A program made the translations under genes and the position numbers. The notes beneath the pieces are model-generated. The model ran no database searches and was not told the origin of the DNA. It saw only the letters and a list, made by a program, of their open reading frames with translations. 21,397 nt of DNA from a virus, in the IMG/VR virus record IMGVR_UViG_3300045999_003047, positions 1 through 21,397 of that record; one strand, 5' to 3'. The number at the start of each line of letters is the position of its first letter. Position 1 is the stretch's first letter. Below are positions 3,815-21,397 of the stretch, in pieces.

Positions 3815-5026
3815 ATGAAAAAGAAATTACTACCTTGGATAATTGCCTTATCCGCTCTTTCTGTTTCTGGATCTGCAGCTTTTTATTCTGTTTCAGGATT
3901 AGGTAAAATGTTTGCAGGAGCTGCTGTGCAAGTAATGGTATTAGCAGGGAGCTTAGAATTTGCTAAGCTAGTAACAGCTTCCCTGCTTTATCAATATTGG
4001 AGGAAACTTAATTTAGGTCTAAAGCTTTATCTCTCTATAGCAACTTTAATATTGATCGTAATAACATCAGCAGGGATATATGGGTTTCTCTCTTCAGCAT
4101 ACCAAGAAACGGCATTTAAAGTACAGAATCAGGATAAAAATATAGAGATACTTGACAAAAATATTTCTATCATACAGAGTGAGATAAAAAACTTTGAATC
4201 CCAAGTAGAACAGAAGAATGACAGGGTCACACAATTAACATCAATAAGAACTAATTTACAATCCACACAGGATGTTTTAATCGAAAAATCTAAATCAACT
4301 AATGCAGTAAGACAGCAGATAAAAGATGTGGATTCAGAGATAAAAAGAATGGACTCGGAGGTTTCTGTTTTAAATGATTCAATATCCTCTAAAAATACAA
4401 GGATATCCTCCATAGAAAAACAAAAGCTTGATGTTTCTTCAAACTCTGATCTAGCTAGAGAGGTAGGTCCTTTGAAATATATTGCAGAATTAACAGGCAA
4501 AGACATAGACAGTGTTGTTAACTGGTATATAATAATCTTAATGCTTGTATTCGACCCATTAGCAATAGCTCTTGTAATTGCAGCAAACTTTGCATTTGAA
4601 ATGAGCGAGGAAAAAAAAGAAAAAGAAATGAGTGAAAAAAAAGAAGGTAAACTTAAATCCATATGGAACAGAATAGTTTCGTTTAATAAAAAGAAAGAAA
4701 AGTTAAACAAAACGGGGGATACCCCTGAAGTTCCCCCAGTATTTGAAGAAGCCCCTATCCAGGAGGAAATTATTACGGAGGAAGAAATAATCAACGAAAA
4801 AAAAGAGATCCTAGAGAATAATAAACCTGCAGTAGATATGAAAAAAGAATCTGCGGAGAAAGAGGAGAATAATGAATCTGCTGAGGATAAATATAATGAG
4901 GAATCTAGCTCACATTTTGATAAATCCAGAAGGGAAAGATTTAGAGGAAATCCTGATTCAAGTGGGTCTAGAAAAAACTTTAGAAATAATCCTGGTGGAG
5001 AAACAGATCCACTTAGTTTAAGATGA
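3815..5026 (+). CDS. Multi-pass membrane protein with central coiled coil
   Basis: This is a 403-residue protein. Three hydrophobic segments lie at about residues 5-25 (LLPWIIALSALSVSGSAAFY), 32-58 (AGAAVQVMVLAGSLEFAKLV) and 70-92 (YLSIATLILIVITSAGIYGFL). A long coiled coil follows at about 100-210 (repeated Ile/Leu heptads such as NIEILDKNISIIQSEIKNFE), then a fourth membrane helix at about 235-265 containing WYIIILMLVFDPLAIALVIAAN. The C-terminal 140 residues are highly charged Lys/Glu and end in an Arg/Asn/Ser/Gly-rich tail. The topology puts the coiled coil on one side of the membrane between helices 3 and 4. From memory, similar membrane-plus-coil proteins occur in other large myoviruses without a known function. 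Its stop overlaps the next ATG by 4 nt (ATGA). Confidence 0.8.
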   Translation: MKKKLLPWIIALSALSVSGSAAFYSVSGLGKMFAGAAVQVMVLAGSLEFAKLVTASLLYQYWRKLNLGLKLYLSIATLILIVITSAGIYGFLSSAYQETAFKVQNQDKNIEILDKNISIIQSEIKNFESQVEQKNDRVTQLTSIRTNLQSTQDVLIEKSKSTNAVRQQIKDVDSEIKRMDSEVSVLNDSISSKNTRISSIEKQKLDVSSNSDLAREVGPLKYIAELTGKDIDSVVNWYIIILMLVFDPLAIALVIAANFAFEMSEEKKEKEMSEKKEGKLKSIWNRIVSFNKKKEKLNKTGDTPEVPPVFEEAPIQEEIITEEEIINEKKEILENNKPAVDMKKESAEKEENNESAEDKYNEESSSHFDKSRRERFRGNPDSSGSRKNFRNNPGGETDPLSLR

Positions 5027-5607
5027 TTAAAACAGTTTATACAACAAATCAAGAATACGTAAAATACCTTGATTGTAATCCGGGCGTATATCGTAGAGTA
5101 TTTTTTCAGACTTGTAATTTAGACATAAAGGAGGGAGCTAATATTTTATCCAGCATTTCTCTTTGTGATTTTAAGCTGGAATCATTAGGAAATTCTGAAC
5201 TTGGTGGATGTGGAGGATCTCTTAAAAGAAGTATCACATTATCTCCATCCGGCTCATATGTTCTAACAGCTCCAGAGGTTGGTCAAGCTCAGGGAGAGGT
5301 TCAAATGATAGTTATTAAAGTAAAATACGAGAAAGGATATCCAGACGAAGAAAGGTATCTAAATTGGGAATACAAAGGAAGCGTATATCCCCTACATACT
5401 CTTATGATATTAACAGGAAGAACCGAACCGGACATCCAGTGGCAAGGATGGGATTTAAGCTATTATTCTAACAACCCTCCAAGTCCGGATTTTAGTCCTC
5501 AGCCTTATCCTGTAATTACTTCACCAAACCTTTCGTTTGGTGGTATACTATTTAGTAATCCTAGCGATACATATAGTGTTGAATTAGAAATATTTGTTTT
5601 TAACTAA
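5023..5607 (+). CDS. Beta-rich protein, first of a tandem paralogous pair
   Basis: This 194-residue protein is predicted to be mainly beta-strand, with no signal peptide, membrane helix or catalytic motif. It is clearly homologous to its immediate downstream neighbour. Both share an N-terminal block (TCNLDIKEGANILSSISLCD here), a central block (MIVIKVKYE...YKGSVYPLHTLMILTG) and a C-terminal block (QGWDLSYY, then FGGILFSNPSDTYSVELEI). Cysteines in the N-terminal block (CNL, LCD, GCGG) are conserved between the two. It is coupled to the preceding membrane protein gene by an ATGA overlap and to the next by TAATG. A virion or adsorption-apparatus protein is plausible from composition and context, but the function is not recognised. 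Confidence 0.78.
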   Translation: MIKTVYTTNQEYVKYLDCNPGVYRRVFFQTCNLDIKEGANILSSISLCDFKLESLGNSELGGCGGSLKRSITLSPSGSYVLTAPEVGQAQGEVQMIVIKVKYEKGYPDEERYLNWEYKGSVYPLHTLMILTGRTEPDIQWQGWDLSYYSNNPPSPDFSPQPYPVITSPNLSFGGILFSNPSDTYSVELEIFVFN

Positions 5608-6095
5608 TGGCTACTCCTCCTACAGTATGTGATACTATTCAATTCGAAGGCGCAATCTTTCAAAGATGCAATCTTCAAGTGGTTAGGGGTACTACCCTGC
5701 TTCGAGAGATAAGCCTATGTGATACAAACATAGCACTAAACAATTATTCTAGTTTTAGCGGGTGTGTTTACGGTAATTCCACATTGGTTTTAAATTCTGA
5801 AGGACTTGGTGAATTATGCTTTATTATGATTAAGGCGACATATCCATCTACACTTCCAGTTTCTAATAGATTTATAAATATAATATACAACGGATCTTAT
5901 ATGCCTATGGCTAACCTTACTATTCTTACAGGTAACCCATCTGATCTATCTCCTTATATTAATAACAGAGGGTGGGACCTAGATCCAAATGGGAGCGATA
6001 TAGAATCTCCTTTTTTCAGCGAAGGTGGAATGCTCCTTTATAATCCACACTCAGTTAGAGTAAACGTTGAAGTTATTTTAGGCGGTAATATTTAA
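5607..6095 (+). CDS. Beta-rich protein, second of a tandem paralogous pair
   Basis: This 162-residue protein is a paralog of the upstream gene. Aligned blocks are QRCNLQVVRGTTLLREISLCD, FIMIKATYPS...YNGSYMPMANLTILTG, RGWDLDPNG and GGMLLYNPHSVRVNVEVILGG. It is shorter than its partner because the first block starts earlier and two loops are reduced. Translation is coupled through a one-base stop/start overlap (TAATG). It has no recognisable catalytic residues. The strand-rich, Asn/Gly/Pro-rich loops look like a small beta-sandwich, so the two could form a hetero-oligomer on the virion; that is inference only. Confidence 0.78.
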   Translation: MATPPTVCDTIQFEGAIFQRCNLQVVRGTTLLREISLCDTNIALNNYSSFSGCVYGNSTLVLNSEGLGELCFIMIKATYPSTLPVSNRFINIIYNGSYMPMANLTILTGNPSDLSPYINNRGWDLDPNGSDIESPFFSEGGMLLYNPHSVRVNVEVILGGNI

Positions 6096-9084: not shown

Positions 9085-9570
9085 GTGGATATAAAAAAAT
9101 TAAAACCCAATGGAAAGTGGAAATCTGGGAAATACACTCCAGTTAATCCAGGAAAATACATTGGAGATATCCACAATATAATCTATAGAAGCTCTTGGGA
9201 GAGGAAATTTTGTCAGTACTGTGACATAAATCCAAATATAACAAAATGGAGTTCAGAGCCAACTTCTATTCCTTATTGGAGTCCAATAGATAAGAAGGAA
9301 CACAAATATTTCGTAGATTACTACATACAGGTTCAAAAAGGCGAAGCTTTTGAAAATTGGTTAATCGAAATAAAACCAGAAGATCAATATGCCTTAAACA
9401 AAAGACCGAAAGAACCAGTAGGAAACCTGACAGAAAAAAAGATCAGAAGCTATAACGAAAAGCTTAAGATCTGGATTACTAATAGGGCTAAGTTTGAAGC
9501 AGCAACTAGATTTGCTGAATCTATGGGATATAAATTCGGAGCAATTAACGAAAGCTTTATAATGAGATGA
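9085..9570 (+). CDS. 4: Head completion nuclease, T4 gp4-like
   Basis: This 161-residue protein (T4 gp4 is about 150) has the head-completion family pattern: YTPVNPGKYIGD near the N-terminus, then IIYRSSWERKFCQYCDINPNI, KWSSEPTSIPY, KYFVDYYI and WLIEIKPEDQ. E (in SWERKF), D (in FVDYY) and E-x-K (in IEIKP) form a TnsA-like PD-(D/E)XK nuclease site. In T4, gp4 acts late in head assembly, before tail attachment. The start is GTG at 9085, eight nt after the previous stop; no ATG is available in that position. An 11-bp inverted repeat (9082-9092 / 9167-9177) covers this start. It overlaps the next gene by ATGA. Confidence 0.87.
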   Translation: MDIKKLKPNGKWKSGKYTPVNPGKYIGDIHNIIYRSSWERKFCQYCDINPNITKWSSEPTSIPYWSPIDKKEHKYFVDYYIQVQKGEAFENWLIEIKPEDQYALNKRPKEPVGNLTEKKIRSYNEKLKIWITNRAKFEAATRFAESMGYKFGAINESFIMR

Positions 9571-10163
9571 TTACTCCATTTAAACAACAATTTGACGACT
9601 ATAGATCGTCAGTATCTGGCCTTACATCACTACAAGAAGAGTCCTTCATGTTTTGGTTTAAAAATTTCGTCAATAAAAACTCTCAATTCAATCCACTAAA
9701 TTTCTTACAAGGGAAGGTTTATTCTTTTGAATACAATGATAAGTTAGAAAAGGGAAAGAAGTTTATAAACAGAAGACCTGTTGTTTTCTTTACTGGGTAT
9801 GACAACTACGAGAAAAAAAATCTATTCAATGGTCTGGATCTTGTTTTAATTCCCCCAATTTTTAGATTGTACTTTTTCGAAAGAGTACAAAATGTTTTTC
9901 ACGACCAAATAGAAAGAAATATACGTAAGGCTGAAAACGGGGAGGGAAGGGATCAATCGCCACTCAGAACTGAGTATCAAATAATGGAAAATATACTAAA
10001 AGGAATACCATATAAGCACTCCTATAGATCCTGGGATTTAAAAAAAGTTAGAGATGTTATGGAAATTCCTTTCGAAGATTGGACTAGAATAGTATATCTT
10101 GATACTAAGTCAATTGAAGGGACCCAGCTTATTGAGATATATAATAAAAATTCACAAGTCTAA
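9567..10163 (+). CDS. Unknown 198-aa protein between gp4-like and portal genes
   Basis: This 198-residue soluble protein is mixed alpha/beta. A strand-rich block GKVYSFEYNDKLEKGKKFINRRPVVFFTGYD is followed by NLFNGLDLVLIPPIFRLYFFERVQ. The pattern 'K-x-Y-x-F-x-Y ... R-x-P-x-V-x-F ... G-x-[DN]-L-x-x-[IL]-P-P' resembles, from memory, a family of unassigned small proteins found in several T4-type phages. In T4 the gene after gp4 is the baseplate wedge gene 53, of nearly the same length (196 residues), but I do not see gp53 sequence features here. It is linked on both sides by ATGA and TAATG overlaps, so it is expressed with head genes. Confidence 0.75.
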   Translation: MITPFKQQFDDYRSSVSGLTSLQEESFMFWFKNFVNKNSQFNPLNFLQGKVYSFEYNDKLEKGKKFINRRPVVFFTGYDNYEKKNLFNGLDLVLIPPIFRLYFFERVQNVFHDQIERNIRKAENGEGRDQSPLRTEYQIMENILKGIPYKHSYRSWDLKKVRDVMEIPFEDWTRIVYLDTKSIEGTQLIEIYNKNSQV

Positions 10164-11812
10164 TGGCTGGATTAACAGACGAAAAAAAATCTTTCTTCAG
10201 CTCTATTATAGAGAACATAAAGAAAGTGGGCAGTTTCGGAATGGCCTACGAAGACTTAGTTGTTAAGAATTCACAAGCAGTAGGTATATCGGAGGCACAA
10301 TTCCTACAAAAAGGTGGTATTAAGGATGAGGCTTTCTTGTTTGGTTTAAGGAGAGCAGATACAACAACTAAACAGTACATAGCATATTTTGATAAGGACT
10401 ACAAAAATAAAAGACACTATCTACAGGGATTTGCACAAAACCCCGAGATAGAATTTATTCTTGACACTATATGTGACGAAGCTATTGTTTACGACGAAAA
10501 GAACTTCTGGGGATATTTCTCCTTTATGCAGCACGATGATGTCGATGACGAAACATACGAGAAGGTTCAGAAAAGATATAAAGAAATATACAATCTATTT
10601 GGGTTTAATCAGGATATAGCCGCCTGGCATTTATTTAGAAAATTTCTTGTCGACGGTATAATAGCTTTCGAAATAGTATTCGATAAAAAAGGAAAAAACA
10701 TAGTTGGCTTTAAAGAATTAGATCCTTGGTCTTTAATCCCCACAGTAGAGGCACAGCCTGATGGATCTTTTACTGACATATGGATTCAGTACCCAGATAA
10801 CCCAGCACTTACCAGAAAACTATACGATTCACAAATAATTTATATAAGTTACGCCAAAGGAGGAGGTACTTCTTCCCGTGTTAGTTATTGTGAAAGAATG
10901 ATCAGATCATTTAATCTACTTCGTATAATGGAACATACTAGGATTATATGGAACGTAATGAACTCTTCTTACAGGATGGCTATGACGGTTCCTATTGGTA
11001 CTAGATCTCCACAAAAAGCAAAACAAACGCTAGGAGAACTTATGTCCATATACAAAGAGGATATAAGATTAGATACAGATAGCGGAGAATTAAGTATAGA
11101 CGGGAGACCTAAAATACAATTCTTTAAAAACTATTTAATGCCTTCGTCACCTAATGGAACCCCAGATATACAACCTTTACCTGGAGGAGGAGATGCAACG
11201 GCTTTCTCAGATACCACAGTTCTTAAATACTTTGCGAATAAGCTAAGAATGGATTCTAAAATTCCAGCGACTAGATTTGGTAGAGAAGAATCTGGATCAG
11301 AGGGAACTATTACTTTTACTGCAGAAGGATTAGACCAAGAAGAAATAAGATTTGCTAAATTTGTAAATAGATTACGATCAATATATCAGGAAATCCTAAT
11401 GAAGCCCCTTTGGGTTCAATTCTGCTTAGACTTCCCTGCTCTTAAGAAAGACTATATAATTAAATCCGAATTTGGATTAGATTACGTCAAGGAAAACATA
11501 TTTAGAGAAGCCAAAGAAATGGAGGTCTTAATGGCAAGGAAAGACCAGGTAATTAAAATTTCTGCTCTTATGAACTCCGCCGGTACCAAGTATTTTAATA
11601 TGGATTTCTTGGTAGATAGATATTTGGGTGTAAAGGGGCAGGACATAATAGGCAACAAAAAAGCTAAGGAAAAAGCTGCCGAGGAAAAAAAGAAAGCTGA
11701 AGAGGCAGGTGCAACTGGTGCAGAGGCAGGTGCAGAGGCAGGTGCAGAGGCAGGTGCAGAGGCAGGTGCCGAAGGTGGTGCAGAGGCAGGAGGAGACATG
11801 GGGACAATTTAA
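10163..11812 (+). CDS. 20: Portal vertex protein, T4 gp20-like (copy 1)
   Basis: This 549-residue protein compares with 524 in T4 gp20. The dodecameric portal forms the DNA-entry vertex, nucleates head assembly and docks the terminase and then the tail. Family features include the N-terminal SFGMAYEDLV, DTICDEAIVYDEKNFW at about residues 101-116, a wing region with GFKELDPWSLIP, the conserved RSFNLLRIMEHTRIIWNVMNSSYRM, then PQKAKQTLGELMSIYKEDI, and YLMPSSPNG...LPGGGDAT, which precedes the crown/clip-region KYFANKLRMDSKIPATRF. The C-terminal 43 residues are a Lys/Glu then Ala/Gly/Glu low-complexity tail ending in GGDMGTI. Start ATG overlaps the upstream stop (TAATG). A second complete portal gene follows after 11 nt. 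Confidence 0.92.
   Translation: MAGLTDEKKSFFSSIIENIKKVGSFGMAYEDLVVKNSQAVGISEAQFLQKGGIKDEAFLFGLRRADTTTKQYIAYFDKDYKNKRHYLQGFAQNPEIEFILDTICDEAIVYDEKNFWGYFSFMQHDDVDDETYEKVQKRYKEIYNLFGFNQDIAAWHLFRKFLVDGIIAFEIVFDKKGKNIVGFKELDPWSLIPTVEAQPDGSFTDIWIQYPDNPALTRKLYDSQIIYISYAKGGGTSSRVSYCERMIRSFNLLRIMEHTRIIWNVMNSSYRMAMTVPIGTRSPQKAKQTLGELMSIYKEDIRLDTDSGELSIDGRPKIQFFKNYLMPSSPNGTPDIQPLPGGGDATAFSDTTVLKYFANKLRMDSKIPATRFGREESGSEGTITFTAEGLDQEEIRFAKFVNRLRSIYQEILMKPLWVQFCLDFPALKKDYIIKSEFGLDYVKENIFREAKEMEVLMARKDQVIKISALMNSAGTKYFNMDFLVDRYLGVKGQDIIGNKKAKEKAAEEKKKAEEAGATGAEAGAEAGAEAGAEAGAEGGAEAGGDMGTI
11702..11785 (+). repeat. Ala-Gly-Glu coding repeat in portal copy 1 tail
   Basis: Tandem 12-nt units GCAGGTGCAGAG encode (Ala-Gly-Ala-Glu)n, with four nearly perfect copies in a row. 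The units use GGT and GAG codons, unlike the matching tail of portal copy 2. Such repeats change copy number by replication slippage. Confidence 0.85.
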
Positions 11813-11823
11813 TAAAATAGAAG

Positions 11824-13482
11824 ATGGCAGGATTTTTAGATAATTTAGGAAAGATCAATCCGAATATCTCTAGGATATTAAAAACGATCAGTGGACTAGG
11901 TTCCTTCGGAATGGAATATAAAGATATGGTCATAGAAGACTCTATGGCGATAGGAGCTTCCGAAGCCGCTATGAGAGAAAGATTTGGTTTTACTGAATCT
12001 GATGAGGATTTTATTTATAGTATAGCTGCACAAGATACTTCTAACAGAAAATACATAGCATATTTTGATAAGGACTACCCAGTTAAAAGAGATTTTCTTA
12101 GAACTTTTGCTCTTAATGCAGAAATAGAATACATTCTAGATACGATATGCGATGAGGCTATAGTATATGATGAAAAAAACTTTTTCTGTCACCCAGCTTT
12201 AATAAATATGGATTTGAAAGATGACGTTATAAAATCCATGAGAGCTAATTTCAGGAAGTTATACGTTCTTCACAATTTTGCAAACGGACTAACGGGTTGG
12301 CAATACTTTAGGCAATTAGTCGTAGAAGGATTTTTAGCTTTTGAGATAATTTATTCCAATGACGGTAAAGAGATAGTAGGATTTAAAGAATTAGATGCTG
12401 TAAGTTTAACTCCCGCTATAGAAAAGAAACCTGATGGAACAAGAGAAACTATCTGGTGGCAGTACTACGGAGAAACAACTAGACAAAGAAAACTTCTGGA
12501 TGCACAAATTATTTATATCTCATACGCTAAAGCCAACGTGGTTTCTAGAGTTTCGTATACAGAAAGATTGATAAGATCTTATAACTTATTAAAGATAATG
12601 GAGCATTCTAGAATTATATGGAACGTTATGAATGCCCAGTATAGAATTAAAATGACAGTTCCTATTGGTAGCAAAGCTCCTCAAAAGGCAAAAGAAACAC
12701 TGGGAGAGTTAATGTCTGTATACAAGGAGGATATAAAGCTAGATACATCATCGGGTGAATTAGCAATCAATGGTAGACCTGATCTCCAATTCTATAAAAA
12801 TTATTTATTTCCTCAACAGGGTGGAGAATCAGTAAAAATAGAAACTCTAAATGCACAAGGACCAAATCTTAATATAATGGATTCGGTGGTTTATTTCTAT
12901 AACAAATTAAGACAGGATTCTAAAATACCTTACAATAGATTCTCATCACGATTTGGTGTGGGTTCTAACAACGTTTTTAAAACTGGAGCAGATGGTGCAG
13001 AGAGAGACGAAATTAGATTTGCTAAATTTATAACTAGACTTAGATCCATATTCCAAGAGATAATGGTAAAGCCTTTATGGATACAAATGTGTTTAGAATT
13101 TCCTGAACTAAAAAATGACTCGGAATTTAGGAGTCAAATTGGTGTCAAATTCGAAAGTGACAACATGTTTGGCGAATCTAGAGAAATTGAACAGCTAATC
13201 AAAAGGATCGATTTCATAACAGCAATGGGAGAAATAAAAGAAACAGTAAAAGAAGAAGAGGTACAATATTTCGACCAAGATTTTATGATTGAAAGATGGC
13301 TAGATTTGTCATATGAAGATATACAGCTAAACAAATCTTACGTTAAAAAAGCGGAAGAGGAAGCCAAAGCTGGAGCAACTGGAGCAGAAGCTGGAGCAAC
13401 TGGAGCAGAAGCTGGAGCAGAAGCTGGAGCAACCGGAGCAGAAGGTGAAGCAGAGGCTGGAGGAGACATGGGGACAATTTAA
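11824..13482 (+). CDS. 20: Portal vertex protein, T4 gp20-like (copy 2)
   Basis: This 552-residue full-length paralog of the preceding portal gene matches it along the whole length. Paired segments include SFGMEYKDMV, YIAYFDKDYP, DTICDEAIVYDEKNFF, RSYNLLKIMEHSRIIWNVMNAQYRI, PQKAKETLGELMSVYKEDI and FAKFITRLRSIFQEIMVKPLWIQMCLEFP. Divergence is greatest in the wing (FCHPALINMDLKDD) and near the clip (PQQGGESVKIETLN). No stop, frameshift or lost core motif is visible, so both copies look functional. The C-terminal tail is again Ala/Gly/Glu/Thr-rich and ends in the same GGDMGTI. Two intact portals could form mixed rings, serve different assembly steps, or be a recent specialisation; the sequence does not decide. 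Confidence 0.9.
   Translation: MAGFLDNLGKINPNISRILKTISGLGSFGMEYKDMVIEDSMAIGASEAAMRERFGFTESDEDFIYSIAAQDTSNRKYIAYFDKDYPVKRDFLRTFALNAEIEYILDTICDEAIVYDEKNFFCHPALINMDLKDDVIKSMRANFRKLYVLHNFANGLTGWQYFRQLVVEGFLAFEIIYSNDGKEIVGFKELDAVSLTPAIEKKPDGTRETIWWQYYGETTRQRKLLDAQIIYISYAKANVVSRVSYTERLIRSYNLLKIMEHSRIIWNVMNAQYRIKMTVPIGSKAPQKAKETLGELMSVYKEDIKLDTSSGELAINGRPDLQFYKNYLFPQQGGESVKIETLNAQGPNLNIMDSVVYFYNKLRQDSKIPYNRFSSRFGVGSNNVFKTGADGAERDEIRFAKFITRLRSIFQEIMVKPLWIQMCLEFPELKNDSEFRSQIGVKFESDNMFGESREIEQLIKRIDFITAMGEIKETVKEEEVQYFDQDFMIERWLDLSYEDIQLNKSYVKKAEEEAKAGATGAEAGATGAEAGAEAGATGAEGEAEAGGDMGTI
13369..13455 (+). repeat. Ala-Gly-Thr/Glu coding repeat in portal copy 2 tail
   Basis: Repeats of the form GCTGGAGCAACTGGAGCAGAA encode Ala-Gly-Ala-Thr-Gly-Ala-Glu. 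The codons (GGA, GAA, GCT) differ from those in copy 1, so the arrays were built separately by slippage rather than copied whole. Confidence 0.8.

Positions 13483-18560: not shown

Positions 18561-18574
<14 letters not shown>
18522..18574 (+). promoter_or_regulatory. Nested inverted repeats around the start of the collagen-like gene
   Basis: TTAAGTTCC (18522-18530) pairs with GGAACTTAA (18566-18574), and inside it GGA-ATATT (18531 on, with a TAT bulge) pairs with AATATTCC (18550-18557). The ATG at 18561 would sit in an internal bulge. The left part includes a GGATATATATTCTAAA string that could be a promoter box. Confidence 0.4.

Positions 18575-21397
<2,823 letters not shown>

Follow-up and report, generated by a model that had tools for sequence, protein, structure and literature searches.

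The locus described here raises the question of why a phage should encode two portal proteins. Portals are regarded as homomeric rings, and how a 5-fold vertex, a 12-fold portal and a 6-fold tail are reconciled despite their mismatch is a standing question. T4 and practically all of the phages that we matched have one portal gene, whereas the window (the whole stretch of DNA analysed, a 21,397-bp fragment of an uncultured virus) encodes two, here called portal A and portal B (table 1), and the lineage to which it belongs always keeps two diverged copies. The initial annotation had described two intact, full-length portal genes in tandem, and this description is accurate in its coordinates: the genes lie on the same strand, 11 nt apart, and their frames are undamaged.

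Table 1. Predicted features of the two-portal locus, in window coordinates
Feature	Coordinates	Strand	Basis or remark
gp4-like head closure gene (TnsA-like fold)	9085..9570	+	PHROG 218 E 5.6e-45; PF08722; same position in relative G008
gp2-like DNA end protector gene, immediately 5' of portal A	9567..10163	+	PHROG 429 E 6.9e-11
Portal A, T4 gp20-type, 549 aa	10163..11812	+	PF07230 E 1e-60; top Foldseek hit is the T4 portal, E 3.4e-22
Portal A stem helix 1, residues 244-267, 86% identity with B	10892..10963	+	T4 gp20 domain limits transferred by alignment
Portal A outer clip, residues 268-310; corresponds to the surface that docks terminase in T4; largely the same in B	10964..11092	+	T4 alignment
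Portal A inner clip strands and channel loop, residues 311-348, many paralog-fixed differences	11093..11206	+	Column counts
Portal A low-complexity G/A/E-rich C-terminal tail	11702..11809	+	Sequence; tail variable across lineage
Intergenic gap between A and B, 11 nt	11813..11823	+	2-11 nt across all complete pairs
Portal B, T4 gp20-type, 552 aa	11824..13482	+	PF07230 E 6.1e-61; top Foldseek hit is the T4 portal, E 1.6e-21
Portal B stem helix 1, residues 247-270	12562..12633	+	T4 alignment
Portal B outer clip, residues 271-313	12634..12762	+	T4 alignment
Portal B inner clip strands and channel loop, residues 314-351	12763..12876	+	Column counts
Portal B low-complexity C-terminal tail, last nine residues identical to those of A	13384..13479	+	Sequence

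By profile and by predicted fold, A and B are T4-type portals. Both exceed the cut-off of the Portal_T4 profile PF07230 (206 bits for A and 207 bits for B against 22.9), both match the PHROG 213 portal, and the best Foldseek matches of their AlphaFold2 monomers are T4 gp20 chains, at a TM of about 0.5 and from models of moderate confidence (mean pLDDT 70.5 for A and 69.2 for B). When aligned with T4 gp20, each copy contains the wing, stem, clip, tunnel loop and crown, and the pair thus resembles the T4 portal in profile family, fold and domain order (wing-stem-clip-stem-wing-crown). BLASTP aligns A with B over 519 aa at 49% identity and 67% positives (E 4e-176). Pfam and PHROG matches place a late sigma factor-like gene and the gp4-like and gp2-like genes 5' of the pair and a DNA ligase 3' of it; proximity to gp2 and gp4 genes is often seen for the portals of T4 relatives. 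In the window the tails of A and B are both G/A/E-rich and share the last nine residues EAGGDMGTI, whereas in most relatives A ends in E-F-K/T-L and B otherwise, which suggests that the tails have been locally exchanged in the window phage.

The pair is a trait of an entire lineage of uncultured phages of very large size. We scanned IMG/VR with A, B and more distant lineage members as queries and recovered at least 55 distinct pairs in which A and B are both complete, drawn from many metagenomes, or 99 when pairs cut by contig or locus ends are included. The two-portal loci that the initial annotation had proposed to look for in related phages thus do exist. In all complete pairs the gene order is invariably A then B, with a gap of 2-11 nt. 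No lineage member with a single portal copy was found in the IMG/VR scans, and the contigs with one copy all break off on the missing side. The paralogs are always retained together across the lineage, as expected of a heteromeric ring that arose from a duplicated gene, and the one-gene-per-genome rule, which is usual for T4-type portals but does not define them, is broken by every complete lineage member. Identity to the window copy falls to about 69% (A-A) and about 67% (B-B), while A-B identity remains near 49%. The recurrence of the pair in many separate contigs rules out an assembly artefact or chimera. One relative (L054, 1542-3164) has a portal A with a single in-frame stop after LMP that is otherwise 96% identical to its neighbor, and this stop is either a sequencing error or a genuine loss.

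Among phage records, 1,182 match A at 1,184 places, and in 1,180 of these records there is a single place. The remaining two records, both 735,411 bp long, have a second portal place at a large distance from the other. We examined it in LR756501, where it is a portal-like ORF of 342 aa that lacks the clip (L148 8021-9049) and is unlinked to the full portal. LR756500 and LR756502 have unlinked ORFs of 189 aa and 153 aa that are similar to the clip region (L149 7912-8481; L150 7850-8311). Such unlinked fragments in huge phages are possibly relics or reused clip modules, and a search for a full second portal elsewhere in the single-portal relatives returned fragments only. The nearest sequence relatives of A and B are the LR756500-like portals (42-46% identical), and the LR745206-like and Lak portals are 33-37% identical. 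The LR756500-like sister clade has one portal in all 78 further contigs, within the stretch covered, and the next group outward has one in 80 contigs. We rooted a second tree on this next group, using the well-sampled sister clade and leaving out the Lak phages, which have a long branch and an insecure placement. In this tree A and B together are supported at 100/99 and each copy at 100/100, with stems of 0.51 and 0.53, which shows one old duplication followed by symmetric change; the A and B subtrees mostly mirror each other. The tandem duplication thus happened once, on the branch between the divergence of the sister clade and the last common ancestor of all two-portal phages, and A and B changed by equal amounts from the duplication to that ancestor.

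Both copies are under strong purifying selection. Median dN/dS is 0.013 for A and 0.019 for B (Nei-Gojobori, 16 pairs with unsaturated synonymous sites), and these values, with conservation within clades, rule out a pseudogene or relaxed copy. Two of the outcomes that the initial annotation had named as fatal to its claim, a relaxed copy and an artefactual duplication, are therefore not borne out. Over 990 pairs, the dN of A and the dN of B are correlated at 0.986 with a median ratio of 0.94. The correlation of A and B distances persists when those of the ligase, of gp2, of gp4 or of the clamp loader are partialled out (partial r 0.69-0.92, 0/1000 permutations), which supports co-evolution of A and B beyond the control genes, to which similar constraint on the paralogs would contribute too. 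The A-B distance within a genome equals that between genomes, and therefore the core has not been homogenised; no gene conversion between copies was seen in the core, and only the low-complexity tails in the window look exchanged. When compared with the sister clade, A keeps the ancestral residue while B varies at 34 sites and the converse holds at 29 sites. Relaxation of the two copies is thus reciprocal, with a complementary loss of ancestral constraint.

Where the copies differ bears on what they do. With T4 domain limits (PMC4493910), transferred through an alignment to T4 at roughly 20% identity on which the boundaries rest, stem helix 1 is the most similar part of A and B (86% identity), followed by stem 2 (62%), the clip (55%) and the main wing (51%), and identity is lowest in the crown (30%), the tunnel loop (36%) and the N-terminus (42%). 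Divergence had initially been assigned to the wing and clip; this holds for the inner half of the clip with its channel loop, which is rich in paralog-fixed differences, but not for the main wing or the conserved outer clip. We defined fixed-different sites as those at which A and B have different residues, each at 90% or more. There are 39 such sites, and they occupy 10/39 columns of the inner clip and channel loop versus 29/517 columns elsewhere (Fisher p 1.3e-4, a descriptive value given that the domain grouping was picked after viewing the table). Of the 42 outer-clip columns, 23 have one and the same residue in both copies at 90% conservation or more, and three are fixed-different. In T4 the outer clip is the terminase-docking part of the portal, the clip sheet is built from neighboring subunits and forms their sole main-chain contact, and the inner clip and channel loops face the DNA (PMC4493910). 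By this alignment A and B have the terminase-docking clip face in common, and the fixed differences are concentrated further in, on the inner strands of the clip and on the channel loop. Judged against the sister clade, the fixed-different sites are ancestral in B at 14, in A at 8 and in neither at 12.

Each two-portal contig has one full terminase gene, beyond which there are weak partial matches in frames of 231-235 aa, and the full-length major capsid protein is single wherever it was found. Because both are single, two head types are disfavored. This was one of three possibilities that had been offered for the pair; a hetero-oligomeric portal fits best, and separate homomeric roles keep a lesser likelihood. 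One contig, G003, has a 294-aa ORF at 63526-64410 (L458), on the strand opposite the portals and 70 kb from the portal pair, that matches the major capsid profile (E 6.7e-15) and is shorter than the frames of about 590 aa in which major capsid protein matches lie.

The portal is not the only duplicated structural gene. In an all-against-all comparison of the 244,850-bp relative G008, the second structural tandem pair consists of tail tube genes of 190 aa and 192 aa that are 52% identical and lie directly behind the sheath (123828-124988; L355 3828-4988; further pairs L374-L453). Both tube genes are present in 9/9 two-portal contigs that span the complete region, the distinct tube pairs number 47, and no single-copy tube was found in the two-portal lineage apart from contigs cut at that point. 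By comparison, there is one tube gene in 10 records of single-portal relatives and in 12 records of a further comparison, and the 31 records with a tube match in the phage collection have 31 places. The LR756500-like, LR745206-like and Lak huge phages have one portal and one tail tube each, some with unlinked portal fragments only, whereas the two-portal lineage has two of each. Mean identity is 54% between T1 and T2 within a genome, 75% between T1 copies and 77% between T2 copies, from which the portal and tube duplications look similar in depth. The window ends short of the tube region, and to judge from its relatives the window phage presumably carries both tube genes. More than one tube-type protein per particle is possible, as seen for T4 gp19 with gp54 and for the two tube proteins of extracellular contractile systems. 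The tube genes described here differ from these in being direct neighbors with about 54% identity and in occurring together with the portal pair. A tandem duplication of the tail tube in exactly the two-portal lineage is new here, and the duplication of both portal and tube in one lineage suggests that rings normally made of one protein are here built from two.

We give an even chance to the hypothesis that A and B build one mixed portal ring, perhaps alternating; that they share a ring, in what stoichiometry, and what role the changed loops have is what we infer. A single portal gene was duplicated in tandem once in an ancestor of these huge phages, and the two products would then have become an obligate pair. 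The resulting heteromeric portal would be one ring of about 12 subunits with both A and B, perhaps as an alternating 6+6 (the dodecamer is assumed from T4). The single terminase and the neck would meet the same outer clip on A as on B, and the copy-specific inner clip strands and channel loops would lead to correct A-B neighbor pairing, with two kinds of loop facing the DNA. A six-plus-six ring would have C6 symmetry, matching the six-fold tail. We favor the mixed ring because the genes are always A then B, 2-11 nt apart and never alone, because a single duplication was followed by equal stems, equal constraint, co-evolution and reciprocal relaxation (34 versus 29 sites), because the outer clip is common to both copies with the fixed differences in the inner clip and channel loop, and because terminase and major capsid protein are single and the tail tube, another ring protein of the DNA conduit, is duplicated in the same lineage. 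We know of no heteromeric portal, and no reports of paired portals, portal paralogs or heteromeric portals were found in the open-licence papers searched. In the fungal V-ATPase ring, the gene of a homomeric ring was duplicated and both copies became indispensable through complementary losses. The portal pair resembles this ring in its reciprocal site pattern, although the mixed V-ATPase ring is proven by experiment whereas we infer that of the portal.

A broader form of this hypothesis, which we put forward tentatively and think possible rather than probable, is that two tandem duplications, both on one branch, turned the DNA conduit of portal and tail tube from one-protein into two-protein rings. 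The symmetry of the portal would then be lower, possibly C6 if A and B alternate, so that the portal would fit the six-fold neck and tail in place of the usual 12-fold ring, with a mixed tube below.

The symmetric divergence and reciprocal relaxation would also be expected of two copies that form rings apart from each other and do different jobs, and the correlation that remains between A and B may come from paralogs being similarly constrained. A and B could in that case be separate homomeric portals that differ in task or in timing, one serving, for example, prohead initiation or a certain host condition and the other packaging, each in its own particle population. Both copies keep every domain and the terminase-docking surface, so each could work alone, and subfunctionalisation would yield symmetric divergence. 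We nevertheless consider separate portals rather unlikely, given that there is one portal vertex per prohead, that the terminase and major capsid genes are single, and that the spacing of 2-11 nt suggests joint expression; the parallel duplication of the tube would also be left unexplained.

It is more doubtful still that a single copy has stayed the true portal while its paralog took on an accessory structural role, for instance as another ring on top of the portal or as a factor that initiates assembly. T4 offers a parallel in its capsid gene duplicates gp23 and gp24, which have specialised sites, gp24 being derived from the capsid gene, and B is slightly closer to the single portals, being ancestral at 14 fixed-different sites versus 8 for A. 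However, the stems are equally long and the constraint is equal, and A retains a terminase-docking outer clip that would be superfluous in an accessory ring. Although tandem duplications are common in phages and the relative L054 has an in-frame stop in A, we find it highly improbable that the pair lacks functional meaning and reflects a duplication that is recent or neutral, a dosage effect or an artefact of assembly, given at least 55 distinct complete pairs from many metagenomes, an A-B identity of 49%, dN/dS near 0.015 and no lineage with a lost copy.

With its paired portals and paired tail tubes, the lineage is a natural experiment in which one can directly test whether heteromeric portals exist, whether lower symmetry eases the joint with the tail, and by what route a one-gene ring turns into a two-gene ring. 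Where a count of one portal per genome is used for binning or phylogeny of T4-like phages, it fails for this well-represented group of environmental contigs.

The named phages with tail tube matches have Prevotella, Tenacibaculum, Chryseobacterium and Flavobacterium as hosts, and they also include phage PAU. Based on these matches, the hosts of the two-portal lineage are likely Bacteroidota; a scan of bacterial and archaeal genomes recovered no relative. A scan for promoters and terminators gave no signal above that of shuffled sequences. Further paralogs occur in these genomes. Two adjacent ORFs of 194 aa and 162 aa at window positions 5023-6095, whose family is unassigned, are mutual paralogs (31% identity, E 2e-20), and G008 has three neighboring ORFs at the equivalent position. 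G008, itself a two-portal contig, also encodes two radical SAM and two galactosyltransferase-like genes at about 69.8-76.1 kb (L352 9827-16083), and each of these pairs consists of neighboring paralogs. Finally, an open-ended ORF of 945 residues at window positions 18561-21395, which ends at the contig edge, contains long collagen-like GXY stretches and probably encodes a fiber.
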